Assembly: GCA_903828955.1 (NCBI GenBank)
Contig: CAIKOA010000035.1
Coordinates: 1 to 44,709, forward strand
DNA from: an uncultured Microcaldota archaeon
GTDB taxonomy: Archaea; Micrarchaeota; Micrarchaeia; Anstonellales; Bilamarchaeaceae
Direction of reading: 5' to 3'
DNA: 44,709 nt
In this document: positions 17,170 through 44,550 of the stretch, in pieces
How the letters are laid out: each line of letters starts with the position of its first letter
Position numbering within the stretch: position 1 is the first letter of the stretch
Notes under the pieces: model-generated
What the model saw: only the letters and a program-made list of their open reading frames with translations
Database searches by the model: none
Told to the model about the DNA's origin: nothing
Made by a program: the position numbers and the translations under genes

Positions 17170-17868
17170 CTACTCCTCGAAAAACAGCTCTTTTATGAAT
17201 CCCTGCACTTCCGCATACATCTTCTTTCCATCCAGGTTAGGCACCAATGAGTCTATTTTGCCCATGTCCGTATCCGCCCCATGGTGCCGGGCGATTATCA
17301 CTCTCGGGTCGGTTCTTGCCTTGTGCGCCATATTGATTAGCAGTTGCATGAGCCGCTTCCTCTCAAAAGGAAGGTCCTTCCCCACCCAGACATCATAAAG
17401 GTCCTTAGGAACGCCTCTATTGGTAAACGCAAGGATTTTCTCCGCAAAAAGAACCTCATACTCATAAGTCAATACGTCCGCATAATATGCCGTATACCCA
17501 AAATGGTAGGGTATCGATTCCGCGCGCATCCGTTTAGGTTCCGCATCCACGTTTTTCTTTGATAAGTCTATATTTATCTTATTCTTATCCGCAAACCTGT
17601 GCATTTTCGGGGTTTTTATGTCATGCTTGAATATTTTATCGAATTCCGTTTCGCATTTTTCCAGGTTTGCGCATTTCAGGTCAATATCATAGGAAATTCT
17701 CTGCCTTTTCCCGAAATAGACCATGTTCAGGGCGGTTCCCCCATATAAGGCGTAATCCAGCTTGGGTTCGTTGAATAGCTCCCTAAGGCGCTCTATCACG
17801 TTTGCCTCCACGTTCAGCTTGTCCTGCGTTATGCCGGTTGCCGCGGTAATATCCTGGAAGTTCTCCAT
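17170..17868 (-). CDS. AbiEii/AbiGii-type nucleotidyltransferase toxin
   Basis: 232 aa. YGGTALNMVYFGKRQRISYD at residues 41-60 gives the GG(T/S)-x9-D-x-D nucleotidyltransferase core (continuing IDLKC), and LFAEKILAFTNRGVPKDLYD supplies the downstream Lys/Arg/Asp signature of AbiEii. Such toxins transfer nucleotides, for some to tRNA, and block growth until antitoxin acts (type IV TA). The partner AbiEi-like gene is divergent, starting 43 bp away, rather than in the usual operon. The C-terminal helices end in an acidic tail. It lies directly upstream of uvrB on the map. Confidence 0.87.
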   Translation of the reverse strand: MENFQDITAATGITQDKLNVEANVIERLRELFNEPKLDYALYGGTALNMVYFGKRQRISYDIDLKCANLEKCETEFDKIFKHDIKTPKMHRFADKNKINIDLSKKNVDAEPKRMRAESIPYHFGYTAYYADVLTYEYEVLFAEKILAFTNRGVPKDLYDVWVGKDLPFERKRLMQLLINMAHKARTDPRVIIARHHGADTDMGKIDSLVPNLDGKKMYAEVQGFIKELFFEE

Positions 17869-17911
17869 GGTAATGTATTGAATGCAAACCTATTTAAAAT
17901 TATGCATATAA

Positions 17912-18646
17912 ATGTCATCTATGTCAAAAAATGAGTTTTTTTTAAACAACACGCTGAAAGCCCTTCCCCCAGTCTTCAGAGTGAAAAACCTCTCGGTTCT
18001 CGGAGGGCCCCGGACCGCTTACCGGCTATTAACGGAAATGCAGAAAAGCAAAATGATATGCAAGGCGGGAAAGGGGCTTTACGGAAAGGTTGCCGAGGAT
18101 CCATATCTAGTTGCGTATCTATCTAATGGGGGCTATATCGGGTTCTCCTCCGCCTTGTATATCCAGGGGCTCAAGACCGAAACCGAGCGGCTAATCTACA
18201 TTGGCTCTTCGCGTTCCGGCCGGGTCAAATTTTGGGCAAACGAATTCGTCCTGGTAAATATGGGTGAATATCTCTTTGGCACTAAAAAGGTGGAGCGGCA
18301 TGGGAAAGAGATGCTTGCTTCTACTCCTGTAAAAACCCTCTTCGACATGTGCCACAGGCCGAAATACGCGGATTTCTACTGCATGTACAGGGCGATGAAC
18401 TGGAAACCCTTCTCTTCAACGGACTGGAAGGAGCTTGCGCGTTATTGCGCAATGGCGCCGCTCAGCACCCGGAGAAGGATTGGATATATCGTTGATGGGA
18501 AAGCTCCGAAAGGAATACTGCGCAAAATCGAATCCCTGAACTCGGATAAGGGGATTTCGTTCCTTTATGGGAAAGGCGGAGATTATTCGGCAAAGTGGAG
18601 GATTTACGATTCGGAATACGTGCGCAGGTGGATTGACGAGGTTTGA
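17912..18646 (+). CDS. AbiEi-like antitoxin/regulator
   Basis: 244 aa. The N-terminal winged helix has TAYRLLTEMQKSKMICKAGK followed by GLYGKV (residues about 37-62), as in AbiEi antitoxins that repress their own promoter. The middle contains the typical GYIGFSSALYIQGL block and the ETERLIYIGSSRSGRVKFWA strand region. The C-terminal half is the toxin-neutralising type domain with ASTPVKTLFDMCHRPKYAD. Divergent from the toxin gene, so a shared 43-bp A+T-rich promoter (TTAAAATTATGCATATAAAT region) could be repressed by it on both sides. Confidence 0.82.
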   Translation: MSSMSKNEFFLNNTLKALPPVFRVKNLSVLGGPRTAYRLLTEMQKSKMICKAGKGLYGKVAEDPYLVAYLSNGGYIGFSSALYIQGLKTETERLIYIGSSRSGRVKFWANEFVLVNMGEYLFGTKKVERHGKEMLASTPVKTLFDMCHRPKYADFYCMYRAMNWKPFSSTDWKELARYCAMAPLSTRRRIGYIVDGKAPKGILRKIESLNSDKGISFLYGKGGDYSAKWRIYDSEYVRRWIDEV

Positions 18647-26709: not shown

Positions 26710-26780
26710 AAAATGCATATTGAATATGCCGCTCGAAGCGGGCGCAGATGTTTTAAATCTAGACATCCCAATCACGAATT

Positions 26781-27785
26781 ATGTCAGGAACAATTATTGC
26801 AGCCCTGAAGAGGAAGGCGAAAGGGCTCAACAAAAGGATAATTTTTCCCGAAGGCAGCGATGAAAGGATAATTCTTGCCGCAGAAATGGCAAGAAAAGAA
26901 AGGATAGCAAGGCCGATTCTTGTAGGCAAGGAGAATGAGATACGGGCAACCGTTGAAAAGCTCGGGCTCAACCCGGCCGGCTTCGAAATAATAGAACCCT
27001 CAAAAAGCAGGAAGCTTGCAAAATACGCCTCGCTTTATTCAAAAATTTCCAAGATGCCGATTCGTACAGCAACCCTGATTGCACAGCAGCCGATTTTCTA
27101 TTCAGCACTTGCGTTAAAGAGCGGGGATGCGGACGGGATGCTCGGAGGCGCAGTATATACTTCTGGAGAGTTCGAAAGCGTCTGCATGACCGTAATAGGG
27201 CTTAGAAAGGGGGTCAGCATCCCATCCAGCTTCTTCATAATGGAAATTCCCGGCTACAAAGGGGGAGAAGGGGGCGCACTTTTGTATGCGGATGCATCCG
27301 TCAGCCCGAATCCGCGCCCCGGCTGCCTCGCCACAATCGCAGTCACAACCGGGCAAAGCGCGAAAGAACTCCTTGGCTGGAAGCCGAGGATTGCAATGCT
27401 TTCCTTCTCCACAAAAGGGAGCGCGACGCATCCTGATGTCGAGAAGGTAATCCAGGCAACGGAAATCGCAAAGAAAATGGCAAAGGGAACCGGAATCTCC
27501 ATAGATGGCGAGTTGCAGGCGGATGCCGCCCTCGTAATGTCCACCGCGAAGAAGAAAATAAAAGGGGATATTGGAGAAGTTGCGGGAAGGGCGAACATTC
27601 TCATATTCCCGGACCTGGATGCGGGAAACATCGCATACAAGCTGACGCAGATACTTGCGGGCGCAAACGCATACGGCCCGATATTGCAGGGCTTCAGCAA
27701 GCCCCTCAGCGACCTCTCAAGGGGCGCAACGCCCGAAGACATCGCAGGCGCAATAGCGATAATCGCCCTGATGGCAAAGCGGTGA
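26781..27785 (+). CDS. pta: Phosphate acetyltransferase
   Basis: 334 aa, the size of the single-domain phosphotransacetylase. KRIIFPEGSDERIILAAEMA opens the fold; DGMLGGAVYTSGE, FSTKGSATHPDVEKV, DGELQADAAL and ANILIFPDLDAGNIAYKLTQ are the family blocks, including the catalytic Ser/Arg/Asp region. It converts acetyl-CoA + phosphate to acetyl phosphate + CoA. TATA-like TTTTAAAT at 26751-26758 sits about 26 bp from ATG, giving a leaderless transcript. First gene of pta-ackA-acpS. Confidence 0.95.
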   Translation: MSGTIIAALKRKAKGLNKRIIFPEGSDERIILAAEMARKERIARPILVGKENEIRATVEKLGLNPAGFEIIEPSKSRKLAKYASLYSKISKMPIRTATLIAQQPIFYSALALKSGDADGMLGGAVYTSGEFESVCMTVIGLRKGVSIPSSFFIMEIPGYKGGEGGALLYADASVSPNPRPGCLATIAVTTGQSAKELLGWKPRIAMLSFSTKGSATHPDVEKVIQATEIAKKMAKGTGISIDGELQADAALVMSTAKKKIKGDIGEVAGRANILIFPDLDAGNIAYKLTQILAGANAYGPILQGFSKPLSDLSRGATPEDIAGAIAIIALMAKR

Positions 27786-27790
27786 AAAGA

Positions 27791-28978
27791 ATGAAAAAAA
27801 TACTCGTGCTCAACTGCGGAAGCTCCTCGGTAAAATACCATCTTTTTGACAAGGACTTTGGAACCCTCCTTTCCGGAATAGTGGAGCGGATAGGGGAGAA
27901 GGCGGAACTGGTGCACAGAAAAGGGGCCAGGACTCTCAAGAAGAAGGTGGATGTGAAAAACCACAAGCAGGCAATCGCCCTCATGAGCAAGCTTCTCCAT
28001 GACCCGGAGTGGGGCGCAATAAAAAGGGTGGACGAGATTTCTGTCGTAGGCCACAGGGTGGTGCACGGCGGACAGTTTTCCAAAACAGGCCTCGTCTCCG
28101 GAGCGGCAATGGGATACCTGAAATCATTCGAGATGCTCGCACCTCTCCACAACCCGCACAACATAACCGGAATAGTTGAATCCAAAAAGGCGTTCCCGCA
28201 CGTGCCCCAGGTGATGGTTTTCGACACCGCATTCCACCAGACCATGCCGCAGAAGGCCTACATGTACGGCCTTCCATACCAGTTCTTCGACAAATATGCG
28301 GTAAGGAAATACGGATTCCACGGAACCTCGCACAAATATGTGGCAATGAAGGCTGCGCAGATGCTCGGGAAAAAGCAGCCCAATCTCATAACCTGCCATC
28401 TTGGCGCCGGCTCAAGCCTCACCGCCATAAAGAAAGGAAAATCCGTGGATACGAGCATGGGCATGACCCCTCTGGAAGGCGTGATGATGGGCACAAGGAC
28501 GGGGGATATCGACCCTGCCGCGATGCAATATCTTGTGAAGAAATACAATTTTGATTATGACGAACTCTTCAACCTGATGAATTTCAAGAGCGGCCTGCTA
28601 GGAGTGTCCGGAATAAGCAAGGACGTCCGGGTGATAGAGGGAAGGGCGAAAAAAGGCGATGAGCGCTGCAGGCTCGCCCTTGAGATGTTCTGCTACCGCG
28701 TCGCGAAATACATAGGCGCCTACGCAGTCGCCCTCGGGAAGGTGGATGCGATAGTTTTCACCGCGGGAATCGGAGAGCATTCACCATCGATGCGCAAGGA
28801 AATCTGCTCATACCTCGGCATAATCGGGGTGAAGCTTGACCCAAGGAAAAACCGGAATGCAAACGGGAAGGAAACCGACATAAGCGCGAAGGGCTCCAAG
28901 GTAAAGGTGCTAGTGATAGCCACGAACGAGGAGCTCATGATAGCCCGCGAAGCTGCGGCGGTCGTGAAAAACATATGA
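27791..28978 (+). CDS. ackA: Acetate kinase
   Basis: 395 aa; ATG 27791 is chosen because GGTGA (spanning the pta stop) lies at the right distance. Family motifs in order: LNCGSSSVKYHLF, GHRVVHGG, VFDTAFHQTMP, YGFHGTSHKYV, CHLGAGSSLTAI, DTSMGMTPLEGVMMGTRTGD, FTAGIGEHSP. Together with Pta it makes ATP and acetate from acetyl-CoA, or runs backwards to activate acetate. This pair is uncommon in archaea and suggests bacterial origin. Its stop overlaps the acpS start (ATGA). Confidence 0.96.
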   Translation: MKKILVLNCGSSSVKYHLFDKDFGTLLSGIVERIGEKAELVHRKGARTLKKKVDVKNHKQAIALMSKLLHDPEWGAIKRVDEISVVGHRVVHGGQFSKTGLVSGAAMGYLKSFEMLAPLHNPHNITGIVESKKAFPHVPQVMVFDTAFHQTMPQKAYMYGLPYQFFDKYAVRKYGFHGTSHKYVAMKAAQMLGKKQPNLITCHLGAGSSLTAIKKGKSVDTSMGMTPLEGVMMGTRTGDIDPAAMQYLVKKYNFDYDELFNLMNFKSGLLGVSGISKDVRVIEGRAKKGDERCRLALEMFCYRVAKYIGAYAVALGKVDAIVFTAGIGEHSPSMRKEICSYLGIIGVKLDPRKNRNANGKETDISAKGSKVKVLVIATNEELMIAREAAAVVKNI

Positions 28979-29334
28979 AGGACGTTTTCGGGCTCGGAGT
29001 GGACATTGTCGATGTAAAGATGATGGCCAGGCTCATTAAGGGCAAGGCGGGAAAGAGCTTCATAAGCAAGACATTCACTGCTCAGGAGATCGCTTATTCA
29101 AAGGGGAATGCGCAGAAGTTTGCCGCAATTTTTGCGGCTAAAGAGGCGGCATTCAAGGCCTTCCAAACCGGCTGGATAGATGGGCAATCAGTAGAAGTGG
29201 TCCACCGTAAAAACGGGGCGCCAACACTCTTCCTGTACGGAAAAATGAAAAAGAAAATAAAAAAGGGCAAGGCGCTCGTCAGCCTCTCCTATACGGAGGG
29301 CTGCGCCATTGCGGCCGTTGTTCTTTCAAGGTGA
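28975..29334 (+). CDS. acpS: Holo-[acyl-carrier-protein] synthase
   Basis: 119 aa, the usual AcpS length. GLGVDIVDVKMMARL is motif 1 with the Mg-binding Asp; FAAIFAAKEAAFKAF is motif 2 (WxxKEA type) with the catalytic Glu/Lys. It transfers 4'-phosphopantetheine from CoA to a serine of ACP. Translationally coupled to ackA by a 4-nt overlap. It ends 10 bp from the end of the convergent ACP gene, its probable substrate. AcpS is bacterial in origin and rare in archaea. Confidence 0.93.
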   Translation: MKDVFGLGVDIVDVKMMARLIKGKAGKSFISKTFTAQEIAYSKGNAQKFAAIFAAKEAAFKAFQTGWIDGQSVEVVHRKNGAPTLFLYGKMKKKIKKGKALVSLSYTEGCAIAAVVLSR

Positions 29335-29344
29335 AGCGGAAGGC

Positions 29345-29590
29345 TCACTTCTTCTCCTTCATCTTCTTCTTTATGTAGGCAACAGCCTGTGCGATGGTCT
29401 TGTTCTTGCTGTTCTCGGACGCGTTCGTGGTTATCCCGAACTCGCCTTCAACCGCAGCCACAAACGCAATCATTGTGAGCGACCGTGCGCCCAGGTCCTC
29501 GATAAAGCGCGTGGAGCCCTTCACCTTCTTGGGGTCTGCCTTGAAGACATCTATCACAATGGCTGTGAGCCTCTTCTCAACGTCGTCCAT
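29345..29590 (-). CDS. Acyl carrier protein
   Basis: 81 aa four-helix ACP. The attachment motif reads DLGARSLTMIAF, so the phosphopantetheine Ser is kept while the usual Asp before it (DSL) is Arg. N-terminal VEKRLTAIVIDVFKADPKKV and C-terminal TIAQAVAYIKKKMKEKK are typical, though the last helix is unusually basic. It lies 15 nt behind the DUF35 gene in the thiolase operon and faces acpS. It would carry acyl chains as thioesters; the partner condensing enzyme may be the thiolase. Confidence 0.93.
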   Translation of the reverse strand: MDDVEKRLTAIVIDVFKADPKKVKGSTRFIEDLGARSLTMIAFVAAVEGEFGITTNASENSKNKTIAQAVAYIKKKMKEKK

Positions 29591-29605
29591 ATCGGTTTCA
29601 CCGAT

Positions 29606-29998
29606 TTACTTTTTGGCGTAGAAGACAACCACGTTCTTCGTCCCTACTTTTTCAACCTTCGCGCTTGCCGCGACCGGGAGCTTCATGTTGCCTTTCCAAG
29701 GGTCGTCCAGGTCAACTCCCTTCACCATCGTGTATAGGACCGGGCCCTCCTTCATCTTCACAAGGCCGAACGCATAAGGTGCAACCGCCTGGAATTCCCC
29801 TCCAGGGTAGTTCAGCACGCTGTAGACGTTTATCTTTCCCTCGCCGCTCATCTGAGCCCATTGCAGGTCCGGGTTGCCGCACTTGTTGCATGTGCCCTTT
29901 GGCGGGAAAGAATATGTTCCGCACTTTCCGCACTTCAGGCCCATCAGCTTCCCTTTCTTCAGGTTGTCATAATATGTCTTGACGATAAGTTCTGCCAT
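29606..29998 (-). CDS. DUF35 OB-fold/zinc-ribbon acyl-CoA-binding protein
   Basis: 130 aa. Start at MAELIVKT, 6 nt behind the ribosome binding site GGAGGTG that lies in the thiolase stop region. The N-terminal rubredoxin-like zinc ribbon is LKCGKCGTYSFPP and CNKCGNPDLQW (CxxC...CxxC). The OB fold follows (GKINVYSVLNYP, YAFGLVKMKEGPVLYTMVKG). In archaea DUF35 proteins bridge acetoacetyl-CoA thiolase and HMG-CoA synthase and hold the CoA moiety. Here the gene lies between thiolase and ACP; no HMG-CoA synthase gene is nearby. Confidence 0.9.
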   Translation of the reverse strand: MAELIVKTYYDNLKKGKLMGLKCGKCGTYSFPPKGTCNKCGNPDLQWAQMSGEGKINVYSVLNYPGGEFQAVAPYAFGLVKMKEGPVLYTMVKGVDLDDPWKGNMKLPVAASAKVEKVGTKNVVVFYAKK

Positions 29999-30003
29999 AG
30001 CCA

Positions 30004-31296
30004 TCACCTCCTCTTCAAAATGGTCACTGCGGCATGGAACAAGGCCCCCTCGTTCTGCATGCCCGCGAGCTTGATGTCGTTCTTCATCTGCCTCTTGCCC
30101 GCTTCCCCGCGCATCTGCTTCACAATTTCGTAAAGCTCGGCGCCCGCCGAAGCGCTCCATGCGTGGCCGAAAGCGTGCCTTCCTCCGGTCACGTTCATCG
30201 GCTTGTCCCCGGTGTAGAGGGTTCTTCCGTCCAGGATTGCCTTCGCCGCCTCGCCGTGCTTGAAATATCCTCCGGTTTCAGCGGATTCCAGCTCCGCCAT
30301 TGTCGCGCTGCAGCTGTGGGTCGTGAGGTAATCCAGGTCGCTGCCCTTCACCCCGGCCATCTTGTATGCTTCCGCATAAGCGAGCTTGTGGCTGGTGTAT
30401 TCGAGCGGGTCCTCGAAAAAGGGCGTGTTGGTTGTGGACCATCCCCATCCGATCACATCAATCGGCTTATTGTCAGTAAATTTGGCTGCGAGCTTGGGGT
30501 GGCAAACTATGTATGCCGAGGCTCCGTCGCACGTGTTCAGGAAGCTCTTTGCGCGAACTGGCCAGGCTCCATAGGGGTTCGTCTTTTTCCAGTATTCGAA
30601 CGGGTCCTTGAATCCCGCCTTCCTCGCCTCCTCTTCATATGTTTCCTTCATCAGGGATTTCGGGTTGAGAGAGGCGTGGAGCCTGTCGTTCCTCCTTATC
30701 ATGTATTCCACGCGGTCCATCTCCTCGAGCGTGAGCCCATACCTCCTCCCATATTCAATCATCTGCCAGGGGCCGTAGTAAGCGAAGCCGCTTGCCGCGC
30801 CGTAGTTGTCATAAACAGTGTCCGCGCCATACATTGTCCAGTAGAACATCTTTCCGACATCAAGCGGGTCCCTGTCCAATGGAGTCTCCGCGACCGTTTC
30901 CGCGCTCTCCTTCGGCTGCGAGTCAAGAATCTCCCCCGCAGTAACCAGGATGCAGTCGTATTTGCCCGACATCACCGACATCGCGGCAAGCCCGAGCCCT
31001 GTGTTGGTCGTAGAACACGCTGTCGCGAAGTTTATGGAGGGCTTTCCCTGCATCCCGAGCCAGTCGCATGTCTGCGAGTTTTCGCTCAGCTGGTGGCTGG
31101 ACTGGGGAAGATAGTTCCCTATATAGAATGCGTCTATGTCCTTCACCGCGTTGATTCCCGCATCCGCAATTGCCTCTTTGCAGGCGGTCATATAAAGCTC
31201 CTGCAGAGTCATTCCCTTTATCTCAGGAGTGGATTGCACATTCCCAAAAGTGGTGCAGCCGACCCCGATTATCGAAGCTACCGGTTTTCCCGCCAT
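30004..31296 (-). CDS. Thiolase family (archaeal/SCP2-type acyl-CoA acyltransferase)
   Basis: 430 aa; start MAGKPVASIIGVGCTTFG because TAGGTGAT precedes it. NFATACSTTNTGLGLAA holds the active-site Cys of the nucleophilic elbow; THSCSATMAELESAE and GGRHAFGHAWSASAGAE give the two catalytic histidine loops. The usual C-terminal Cys motif is replaced by NEGALFHAAVTIL, as in many SCP2-type/archaeal thiolases. It probably condenses or cleaves acyl-CoA (or acyl-ACP) units. The TGA stop overlaps the ribosome binding site of the DUF35 gene, so the two are tightly coupled, followed by ACP. Confidence 0.9.
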   Translation of the reverse strand: MAGKPVASIIGVGCTTFGNVQSTPEIKGMTLQELYMTACKEAIADAGINAVKDIDAFYIGNYLPQSSHQLSENSQTCDWLGMQGKPSINFATACSTTNTGLGLAAMSVMSGKYDCILVTAGEILDSQPKESAETVAETPLDRDPLDVGKMFYWTMYGADTVYDNYGAASGFAYYGPWQMIEYGRRYGLTLEEMDRVEYMIRRNDRLHASLNPKSLMKETYEEEARKAGFKDPFEYWKKTNPYGAWPVRAKSFLNTCDGASAYIVCHPKLAAKFTDNKPIDVIGWGWSTTNTPFFEDPLEYTSHKLAYAEAYKMAGVKGSDLDYLTTHSCSATMAELESAETGGYFKHGEAAKAILDGRTLYTGDKPMNVTGGRHAFGHAWSASAGAELYEIVKQMRGEAGKRQMKNDIKLAGMQNEGALFHAAVTILKRR

Positions 31297-31430
31297 TTTA
31301 TCACCTAAAAATTCATTTTTTATTATTGGCAAAATGCCACGGATTAATGCAAGTGCAATAATATCCGCACAAATCGAAATCGGGAACAAATATTATAAAG
31401 ATATCCATGGCGGGCAGGATTTGGCCAAAC

Positions 31431-31847
31431 TCATCTTCGCTTTAATCTCGCAGCAAGGCATTCCGGAATGTGCTTGCGTTGCCACTCGCACTCATTCCCG
31501 GCAGCCGCGGCTATTGCGGCTTTTTCAGCATACCACGCGGCGGCGATAGCATGGCCTGGAGCATGCGCAGTAGCCATTGCCTGTCCTGCTGCACGGGCGG
31601 CAAAACGAGCCGCATCGTTTTTGCATTTGCGTGCGGCCGCATGGGACGCAAGCGAGGTTTTCCGCACATCAGCCATCCTAAAAATTCCCGTGCGCGCCCA
31701 CTTCCTGCATTCCTTAATTGCATTCCGAGGGCGTTTATCTTTTGGATATTCTTTCTCAAAATAAGGAAGCACATGCTCGGCGCAGTCCGCAGCCCAGAGC
31801 GCCAGCGCCTTATGCTCTTCTTCAGTGATTTCGTTTTTTCTTATCAT
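31431..31847 (-). CDS. Imm5-like putative immunity protein
   Basis: 138 aa. ALALWAADCAEHVLPYFEKE, then DKRPRNAIKECRKWARTG, and an Ala-rich half with AARAAGQAMATAHAPGHAIA and AAWYAEKA follow the Imm5 family of predicted immunity proteins found beside polymorphic toxins. No toxin gene is next to it, so it is an orphan here or has another function. All helical and soluble. The gene stands alone on the minus strand between the thiolase operon and tRNA-Leu. Confidence 0.75.
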   Translation of the reverse strand: MIRKNEITEEEHKALALWAADCAEHVLPYFEKEYPKDKRPRNAIKECRKWARTGIFRMADVRKTSLASHAAARKCKNDAARFAARAAGQAMATAHAPGHAIAAAWYAEKAAIAAAAGNECEWQRKHIPECLAARLKRR

Positions 31848-31873: not shown

Positions 31874-31959
31874 TGCAAGGGGCAGGATTTGAACCTGCGC
31901 AAGCACTAAGCTACAGGATCCTAAGTCCTGCGCGTTTGACCAAGCTCCGCCACCCTTGC
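31874..31959 (-). tRNA. tRNA-Leu(TAG)
   Basis: 86-nt class II tRNA on the minus strand. The acceptor GCAAGGG/CCCTTGC, anticodon stem CAGGA/TCCTG with loop CTTAGGA (anticodon TAG), long variable arm, and T stem GCAGG/CCTGC with TTCAAAT are all matched; discriminator A. No CCA encoded. Confidence 0.95.
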
Positions 31960-43557: not shown

Positions 43558-44010
43558 ATGAACAATGGAATGATCATGCTGGGATTGCTCCTTATAGGAG
43601 GGCTCTCCTTCGCAACATCGATACATAGTTGGGAATACCCATGGCAGACAACAGTCTACGGGCACTATAGCTGCAGTTTTAACTACCTGTCCAACTACCA
43701 GTATGCGCTGGCGTACAGCTATATGGCTCCATACGCAGGGCCATACCAGATGGCGAACATGTACAATGCGCTGTATTACATGAATGTGGATCTGCGCAAC
43801 ATGTGGATTCACTACTACGCAACCCCGTTCAAGTCAGACGTGGCCAGCTACAACGGCGACAACTCGCTGTTCAGCGGGATTTTCAACAGCGTCCTGCGCG
43901 CATACATTGCGCATGCGGACTCCGGCGCAAGGGCAAACATCCTTAGCTTGCTTCAGGGCTACAACGACCAGTACCGCTCCTGCATAAACCCGGTTAAAGT
44001 AGTTACTTAA
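43558..44010 (+). CDS. Secreted Tyr/Trp-rich protein, copy 1
   Basis: 150 aa. Signal peptide (GMIMLGLLLIGGLSFATS), mature part rich in Tyr, Trp, Asn and Met: SWEYPWQTTVYGHYSCSFNY and then YSYMAPYAGPYQMANMYNAL. Two Cys (about 40 and 143) may pair. GGTG lies 6-9 nt before ATG. Nearly identical to the next gene in the central 130 residues. Aromatic-rich secreted proteins can form surface layers or adhesins, but nothing here proves it. Confidence 0.65.
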   Translation: MNNGMIMLGLLLIGGLSFATSIHSWEYPWQTTVYGHYSCSFNYLSNYQYALAYSYMAPYAGPYQMANMYNALYYMNVDLRNMWIHYYATPFKSDVASYNGDNSLFSGIFNSVLRAYIAHADSGARANILSLLQGYNDQYRSCINPVKVVT

Positions 44011-44100
44011 TTCTTTTTTTCCTTTTTAATTTCCTATTTTTCACCCTCCAGTGCGAGCATTTTTAAACTTCACCTTCTTTATCTATTCAAAGGTGTACAC

Positions 44101-44550
44101 ATGAATAAAGGAATGATAATGCTTGGATTGCTCCTAATCGTGGGGCTTTCCTTCGCAGTTTCGCATACTTGGGAATACCCGTGGCAGTCCACGGTCTACT
44201 GGCACTATGATTGCAGCTTCAGTGACCTGTCCTACTACCAGTATGCGCTGGCGTACAGCTACATGGCTCCATACGCAGGGCCATACCAGATGGCGAACAT
44301 GTACAATGCGCTGTATTACATGAATGTGGATAAGAGCAACATGTGGATTCACTACTACGCAACCCCGTTCAAGTCAGACGTGGCCAGCTACAACGGCGAC
44401 AACTCGCTGTTCAATGGGATCTTCAACAGCGTCCTGCGCGCATACATTGCGCATGCGGACTCCGGGCAGAAGGCATACATAATGTCGATGCTCCAGGGGT
44501 TCAGGGATGATTACCGCTCCTGCATAAACCCGGTTAAAGTAGTTACTTAA
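44101..44550 (+). CDS. Secreted Tyr/Trp-rich protein, copy 2
   Basis: 149 aa paralogue of the preceding gene with the same signal, AAGGTGTACACATGAA start context and T-rich 3' end. Differences cluster in the signal/mature boundary and the segment GQKAYIMSMLQGFRDDYRSC. DNA from about 44229 to 44460 matches 43686-43917 almost exactly, so the pair is a recent tandem duplication or is kept alike by gene conversion. Confidence 0.65.
   Translation: MNKGMIMLGLLLIVGLSFAVSHTWEYPWQSTVYWHYDCSFSDLSYYQYALAYSYMAPYAGPYQMANMYNALYYMNVDKSNMWIHYYATPFKSDVASYNGDNSLFNGIFNSVLRAYIAHADSGQKAYIMSMLQGFRDDYRSCINPVKVVT

Follow-up and report, generated by a model that had tools for sequence, protein, structure and literature searches.

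A 44,709-nucleotide stretch of contig CAIKOA010000035.1 (the window) was analyzed; it comes from an assembly of 1,223,890 bases in 35 contigs (95.55% complete). The named relatives of the host are Candidatus Micrarchaeota (NCBI: Microcaldota), in agreement with the archaeal origin assumed in the initial annotation of this DNA. Positions 26781-31296 hold a cassette of six genes coding for a phosphotransacetylase (Pta), an acetate kinase (AckA), a holo-ACP synthase (AcpS), an acyl carrier protein (ACP), a DUF35 subunit and a thiolase, arranged as Pta>AckA>AcpS> <ACP<DUF35<thiolase. The features are as follows.

26781..27785, + strand: phosphotransacetylase (Pta; PTA_PTB family); PF01515 1.1e-91, under the TIGR00651 and PRK09653 cut-offs
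27782..28978, + strand: acetate kinase (AckA); PF00871 2.7e-140; TIGR00016 473 bits, cut-off 293
28975..29334, + strand: holo-ACP synthase (AcpS); TIGR00516 64.4 bits, cut-off 59.8; PF01648 2.1e-12
29345..29590, − strand: acyl carrier protein (ACP); PF00550 2.5e-8
29591..29605, − strand: perfect short inverted repeat ATCGGT-GAA-ACCGAT in the DUF35/ACP gap, read from the sequence
29606..30004, − strand: DUF35 subunit (zinc ribbon plus OB fold); PF12172 7.5e-9, PF01796 2.7e-9; nearest solved chain 6esq_E, 1.8e-14
30004..31296, − strand: thiolase of a separate clade, by tree and signature residues; PF22691 2.3e-23, PF00108 2.5e-9
26735..31304, no strand: horizontally shared block; genome G038 matches here in a single DNA stretch (79.6%), limited to the six genes

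The three + strand genes, Pta, AckA and AcpS, each run into the next (27782-27785 and 28975-28978); the AckA start overlaps the Pta stop, and the AcpS ATG overlaps the AckA stop (ATGA). Among the − strand genes, the DUF35 ATG and the thiolase stop share bases (TGATG), and ACP starts 15 bp past DUF35, the intervening inverted repeat covering its likely ribosome-binding site. AcpS and ACP are convergent, with 10 bp measured between their 3′ ends. The initial annotation had placed AcpS, ACP, DUF35 and thiolase here with this tight spacing, and the four frames are indeed open and all have Pfam matches. The set it drew was nevertheless too narrow: it overlooked that Pta and AckA, directly upstream, belong to it too, and that the ACP lacks the Asp preceding the phosphopantetheine Ser.

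Linkage and joint transfer of the six genes

Among 147 related genomes, the ACP occurred in 10; a close thiolase (48–100% identity) was present in exactly these 10, and all of them had AckA, for which three more genomes gave weaker matches. This co-occurrence is more than chance would give. The gene order of the window was kept in all 10 loci, Pta lying past the contig end in G001 and G002. A profile scan for ACP over 301 genomes of the phylum yielded 12 matches: the same 10, one in G192 (locus L076) and one in G099. Eleven, G192 included, lay inside the cassette; that of G099, which by eye stands among phage-like genes, was dropped as a chance match.

The cassette nearest to that of the window is found in G038, a member of a different genus. 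Identity between the two was 92% for the cassette thiolase, 91% for DUF35 and 88% for ACP, as against 73% for the mevalonate thiolase and 53% for the ADP-forming acetyl-CoA synthetase. The order was reversed for G001, of the same genus as the window: HMG-CoA synthase (HMGS) 80%, mevalonate thiolase 78% and synthetase 74%, against 47% for the cassette thiolase and 40% for ACP. This reversal, together with the one-block DNA match to G038, indicates that the six genes moved together and that no others went with them. The shared block has a G+C content of 53.4% versus 47.6% for the rest of the window, a value reached by one of 81 sliding windows of that size. The two 200-base boundary stretches had no direct repeat of at least 10 bases in common; they showed one 11-base inverted match in AT-rich sequence. 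A passage in PMC3533463 states that most archaea lack ACP and that the few possessing it obtained it from bacteria, which agrees with the transfer seen for this cassette.

Bacterial contamination or misbinning of the assemblies would also account for bacterial-type genes with a G+C content above that of their surroundings, and the G001 and G002 contigs are just 3631 bases long. This is very improbable, since the cassette is present in 11 genomes of the phylum and in long contigs, where its neighbors include a gene resembling TFIIB (G038) and ribosomal protein genes of archaeal type (G092), both identified by eye.

The thiolase alignment, used to scan named genomes, gave 185 relatives. The best 80 were examined, corresponding to 58 family loci and 22 outgroup loci, and genes were counted within 6 kb of the thiolase. 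DUF35 was present at 57/58 family loci (33/33 of those with full flanks), ACP at 52/58 (29/33), Pta at 51/58 (33/33), the kinase at 48/58 (30/33) and AcpS at 21/58 (11/33). AcpS was found at 13 of the 14 archaeal loci, and the ACP-less loci among the 58 are partly explained by contig ends. The outgroup loci had DUF35 in 12/22 cases, and ACP, Pta, kinase and AcpS in 0/22. As samples these relatives are not independent of one another, though in the tree the thiolases of Micrarchaeota are scattered over several positions among those of other phyla. The hosts of the 58 included Micrarchaeota, Borrarchaeum, Sifarchaeum, Hecatella, Oleimmundimicrobium, two Patescibacteria, Geosporobacter, Sinanaerobacter, Lachnospiraceae, Erysipelotrichaceae, four streptococci and many coriobacteria. 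Outside the phylum, the same components accompany this clade of thiolases in Asgard archaea, Patescibacteria, clostridia, streptococci and coriobacteria. Since gene orders varied widely among loci, it is the linkage that has been kept, not the order.

Some of these genes are naturally fused. In L111 and L112 a single frame codes for DUF35, an Ala/Asp/Glu-rich linker and ACP, while in L086 one frame joins thiolase and DUF35; Pfam confirmed the fusions in L111 and L086, and gave nothing over threshold in L112. Single-frame fusions in assemblies could mask sequence errors, which the existence of two DUF35-ACP cases makes less likely. The fusions point to a putative physical complex of thiolase, DUF35 and ACP. 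Co-occurrence, one-block transfer and fusions bear out the proposal in the initial annotation that ACP, AcpS, DUF35 and thiolase belong to a single functional set, and the linkage of the cassette genes is well supported. No description of this cassette was found in the open-access literature, so it seems to be undescribed.

Three loci, L080 (7743-14728), L088 (3146-9955) and L101 (6184-9951), carry two thiolase-DUF35 pairs each. At L101 the 6 kb around the best thiolase contain no kinase gene.

Thiolase, carrier protein and the pathways of the host

The window thiolase keeps C94, H327 and H378, and shows GGR..GHA in place of GGL..GHP. The Arg was present in 56/58 family rows and the Ala in 58/58; Leu and Pro occupied these positions in all 23 ordinary thiolases. 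In a quick tree, with support from the SH-aLRT test only and a warning of long branches meeting, the 23 ordinary thiolases, including the mevalonate thiolase of the host (L148), lay on one side of a fully supported branch and the window thiolase on the other. The 58 rows were labelled as having cassette ACP, although for some the ACP lies past a contig end or the row is a second copy.

The solved relatives of the thiolase profile included 6esq_A as second best, and also PhlC, while PhlB was among those of DUF35. A conserved extra Arg373 adjoins the catalytic His. These likenesses might indicate PhlABC-like acyl transfer, with thiolase-DUF35 moving acetyl between ACP and a small molecule, and Pta and the kinase charging or discharging ACP. 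The cassette has, however, no PhlA-like KSIII partner, and Cys94 was kept in 58/58 and His378 in 57/58 rows, making this explanation quite unlikely.

As the initial annotation had noted, there is no HMGS gene nearby (none was seen by eye among the larger open reading frames of the window). It had also proposed possible chain building on ACP, a view that was not supported. A genome search located HMGS on another contig, in an ordinary operon that also holds another thiolase and another DUF35, which explains why it is missing from the locus. Because this operon has its own thiolase and DUF35, the cassette thiolase is a paralogue that does not belong to the mevalonate set, and a mevalonate role for the cassette was discarded.

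Chain building would require the cassette to run in reverse, with AckA and Pta loading acetate or another acid on ACP, and thiolase-DUF35 using acetyl-CoA to make a β-ketoacyl-ACP. The ACP does resemble those of fatty acid synthesis, related thiolases make acetoacetyl-CoA, and the process would be self-contained from acetate, ATP and acetyl-CoA. Condensation without decarboxylation or some other pull is, however, unfavorable. FabZ was not found (no PF07977 match in the host genome at its 95.55% completeness, with 9/14 controls matching). The genome contains one FabG/FabI-type short-chain dehydrogenase/reductase (PF13561 2.9e-45), apart from the cassette and beside a helicase-like gene. No reductase or dehydratase family recurred across most cassette loci. 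Given also that 9/10 cassette genomes have an ADP-forming acetyl-CoA synthetase, and that HMGS lies elsewhere with its own partners, chain building is unlikely. A type II fatty acid synthase was rejected for lack of FabZ, PF00109 (ketosynthase) and PF00698 (FabD) not being searched for. The FabG, FabI and FabZ reported for other DPANN archaea in a section of PMC10936187 are a different matter.

The window ACP is the sole PF00550 match in the host genome, and its profile is nearest to the solved 1x3o and 2ehs. It retains the attachment Ser (ARSL) with Arg in place of the preceding Asp (RSL, not D-S-L). Lys or Arg holds this position in 14/14 archaeal loci, and the Asp is replaced in 54 of 55 aligned ACPs, L101 having the single DSL motif. 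The AcpS motifs GxxxDI and FAAKEA align with those of the solved AcpS 3qmn. That a change of charge in ACP (Asp to Lys/Arg) is offset by one in AcpS was considered and rejected: at the position equivalent to Arg14 of Bacillus subtilis AcpS, the alignment showed no consistent loss of the residue, Met standing there in the window and Arg or Lys in the other nine. The odd ACP motif therefore lacks a simple matching change in AcpS. In G001 and G002 (L045 and L048, about 1549-1812) the ACP frame has no in-frame ATG, GTG or TTG after the upstream stop and overlaps an extended DUF35 C-terminus; a rarer start codon or a coupled start is therefore likely.

Proposed function and comparison with known systems

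What consistently accompanies the family thiolase is a phosphotransacetylase and an acid kinase. Archaea have AckA in the kinase slot, whereas the gut locus tested has butyrate kinase; since the type of kinase switches while the slot stays filled, making (or using) acyl-phosphate may well be the point of the cassette. The hosts own other enzymes for acetyl-CoA. An ADP-forming acetyl-CoA synthetase was present in 9/10 Micrarchaeota cassette genomes (G033 gave a weak match only), as was a pyruvate:ferredoxin-type oxidoreductase in 10/10. A search of 12 named genomes with PF01515 found one gene in five archaea or Patescibacteria and at least two in the other seven; streptococci and Collinsella carry further Ptas. 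In a quick tree the cassette Ptas and the housekeeping Ptas found in the same streptococci formed separate groups, a separation independent of the rows L166 (the L102 cassette itself) and L101, the two L101 Ptas not being adjacent to its thiolases. L171, the free Pta of G050, has a long branch and was placed among the cassette Ptas. That a separate Pta stays with a dedicated ACP is most simply explained by its serving acyl-ACP. PlsX, a relative of the Pta superfamily, makes acyl-phosphate from acyl-ACP.

Replacement of the ADP-forming synthetase by the cassette was rejected, because 9/10 cassette genomes have both and the synthetase was not found in the three genomes whose AckA is not part of a cassette (G045, G050 and G119). 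G045 and G050 have a free Pta-AckA pair; the matches in G119 are weak and partial.

Three ACP-less loci (L100, L106 and L119), whose thiolases form one clade within the family, have a Ptb-type enzyme and butyrate kinase instead of Pta. TRAP-type transport, an isochorismatase-type hydrolase and a URO-D-type protein lie near L106, and this type appears to follow the same logic with CoA, in a putative breakdown pathway. That these loci manage without ACP, and that every enzyme of the cassette comes from a CoA-using family, might suggest ordinary CoA-based acetate metabolism in which ACP is structural or regulatory only. The frequency of ACP among the 58 loci, the AcpS carried by almost all archaeal loci and the joining of DUF35 to ACP via a flexible linker make this rather improbable.

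Taken together, these findings suggest that the six genes may form one transferable metabolic cassette for ACP-linked substrate-level phosphorylation, to which we assign a probability a little under one half. AcpS would convert the dedicated ACP to holo-ACP, whose phosphopantetheine arm would enter the thiolase-DUF35 complex in place of the tethered CoA of the archaeal thiolase/HMG-CoA synthase complex. The thiolase would then cleave a β-keto acyl compound, leaving one acyl group on ACP; Pta would move this group to phosphate, and AckA would yield acetate and ATP (in gut bacteria, butyrate kinase would yield the corresponding acid and ATP). We infer that Pta receives its acyl group from ACP and not from CoA, and we likewise infer a β-keto substrate and the cleavage direction, the latter from neighborhoods and from thermodynamics, thiolysis being downhill. 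Somewhat more tentative is the wider proposal that an energy-conserving DUF35-thiolase → ACP → Pta → acid kinase route has spread as a six-gene cassette across DPANN and Asgard archaea, Patescibacteria and anaerobic bacteria.

Several observations weigh against ACP-linked phosphorylation. The thiolases of mevalonate complexes run in the making direction, Pta and AckA are close to plain CoA and acetate families, and the ACP-to-Ptb switch is a single event. The kinase is absent nearby in 3/33 full-flank loci, and the archaeal cassettes have no constant neighbor that would name a substrate. His327 is present in 22/58 family rows and replaced by Asn in 35/58 (the gut side), where the chemistry may therefore differ; the Met at the Arg14 position of the window AcpS is a further difficulty.

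Nearby genes at some bacterial loci code for transporters, hydrolases or a protein resembling a flavoprotein reductase. At two gut loci, L087 (4007-5746) and L098 (12421-13176), a vinyl phenol reductase-like flavoprotein and an lp_1002-like arylesterase were found, a possible hint of plant phenolic substrates. Elsewhere in the window, an Imm-5-like putative immunity protein (31431-31847; PF21805 3.8e-41) lies beside the cassette, near a tRNA-Leu gene (31874-31959). The region 17170-18646 holds a gene for an AbiEii-type nucleotidyltransferase (PF08843) and, adjoining it, a divergent gene as a possible partner (by eye), and 43558-44550 codes for two tandem, very similar small proteins (150 and 149 aa) with signal-like starts.

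Carrier-protein chemistry is usually thought of as anabolic. If the proposal is true, ACP, thiolase and acyl-phosphate/ATP chemistry would constitute a new way of conserving energy in two domains and many phyla. The cassette would give archaeal ACP a concrete role, and join in one function genes now annotated separately (thiolase, OB-fold protein, ACP, Pta and kinase), those of gut bacteria included.

The cassette shares a thiolase fold and a DUF35 scaffold with PhlABC, BbsAB and Ltp2/Sal, as these are described in a portion of PMC12329534. The catalytic Cys and His residues (C94, H327, H378) and a partner with PF12172 and PF01796 are all present in the window. To our knowledge, PhlABC, BbsAB and Ltp2/Sal are without ACP, Pta or kinase. 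With type II fatty acid synthase it has in common an AcpP-type ACP and an AcpS over the TIGR00516 cut-off, but the Asp before the Ser is replaced in nearly all of its ACPs and the genome has no FabZ match. Like Pta-AckA (or Ptb-Buk) substrate-level phosphorylation, it pairs a phosphotransacylase with an acid kinase; unlike it, the pair is in fixed linkage with ACP, DUF35 and thiolase, and coexists with an ADP-forming acetyl-CoA synthetase or extra Ptas. Finally, it resembles the archaeal thiolase/HMGS/DUF35 mevalonate complex in its thiolase and DUF35, with overlapping genes and 6esq_E and 6esq_A as near structures. It differs in lacking HMG-CoA synthase, in having a thiolase of another clade together with ACP, AcpS, Pta and kinase, and in being carried by a host that keeps the true complex separately.

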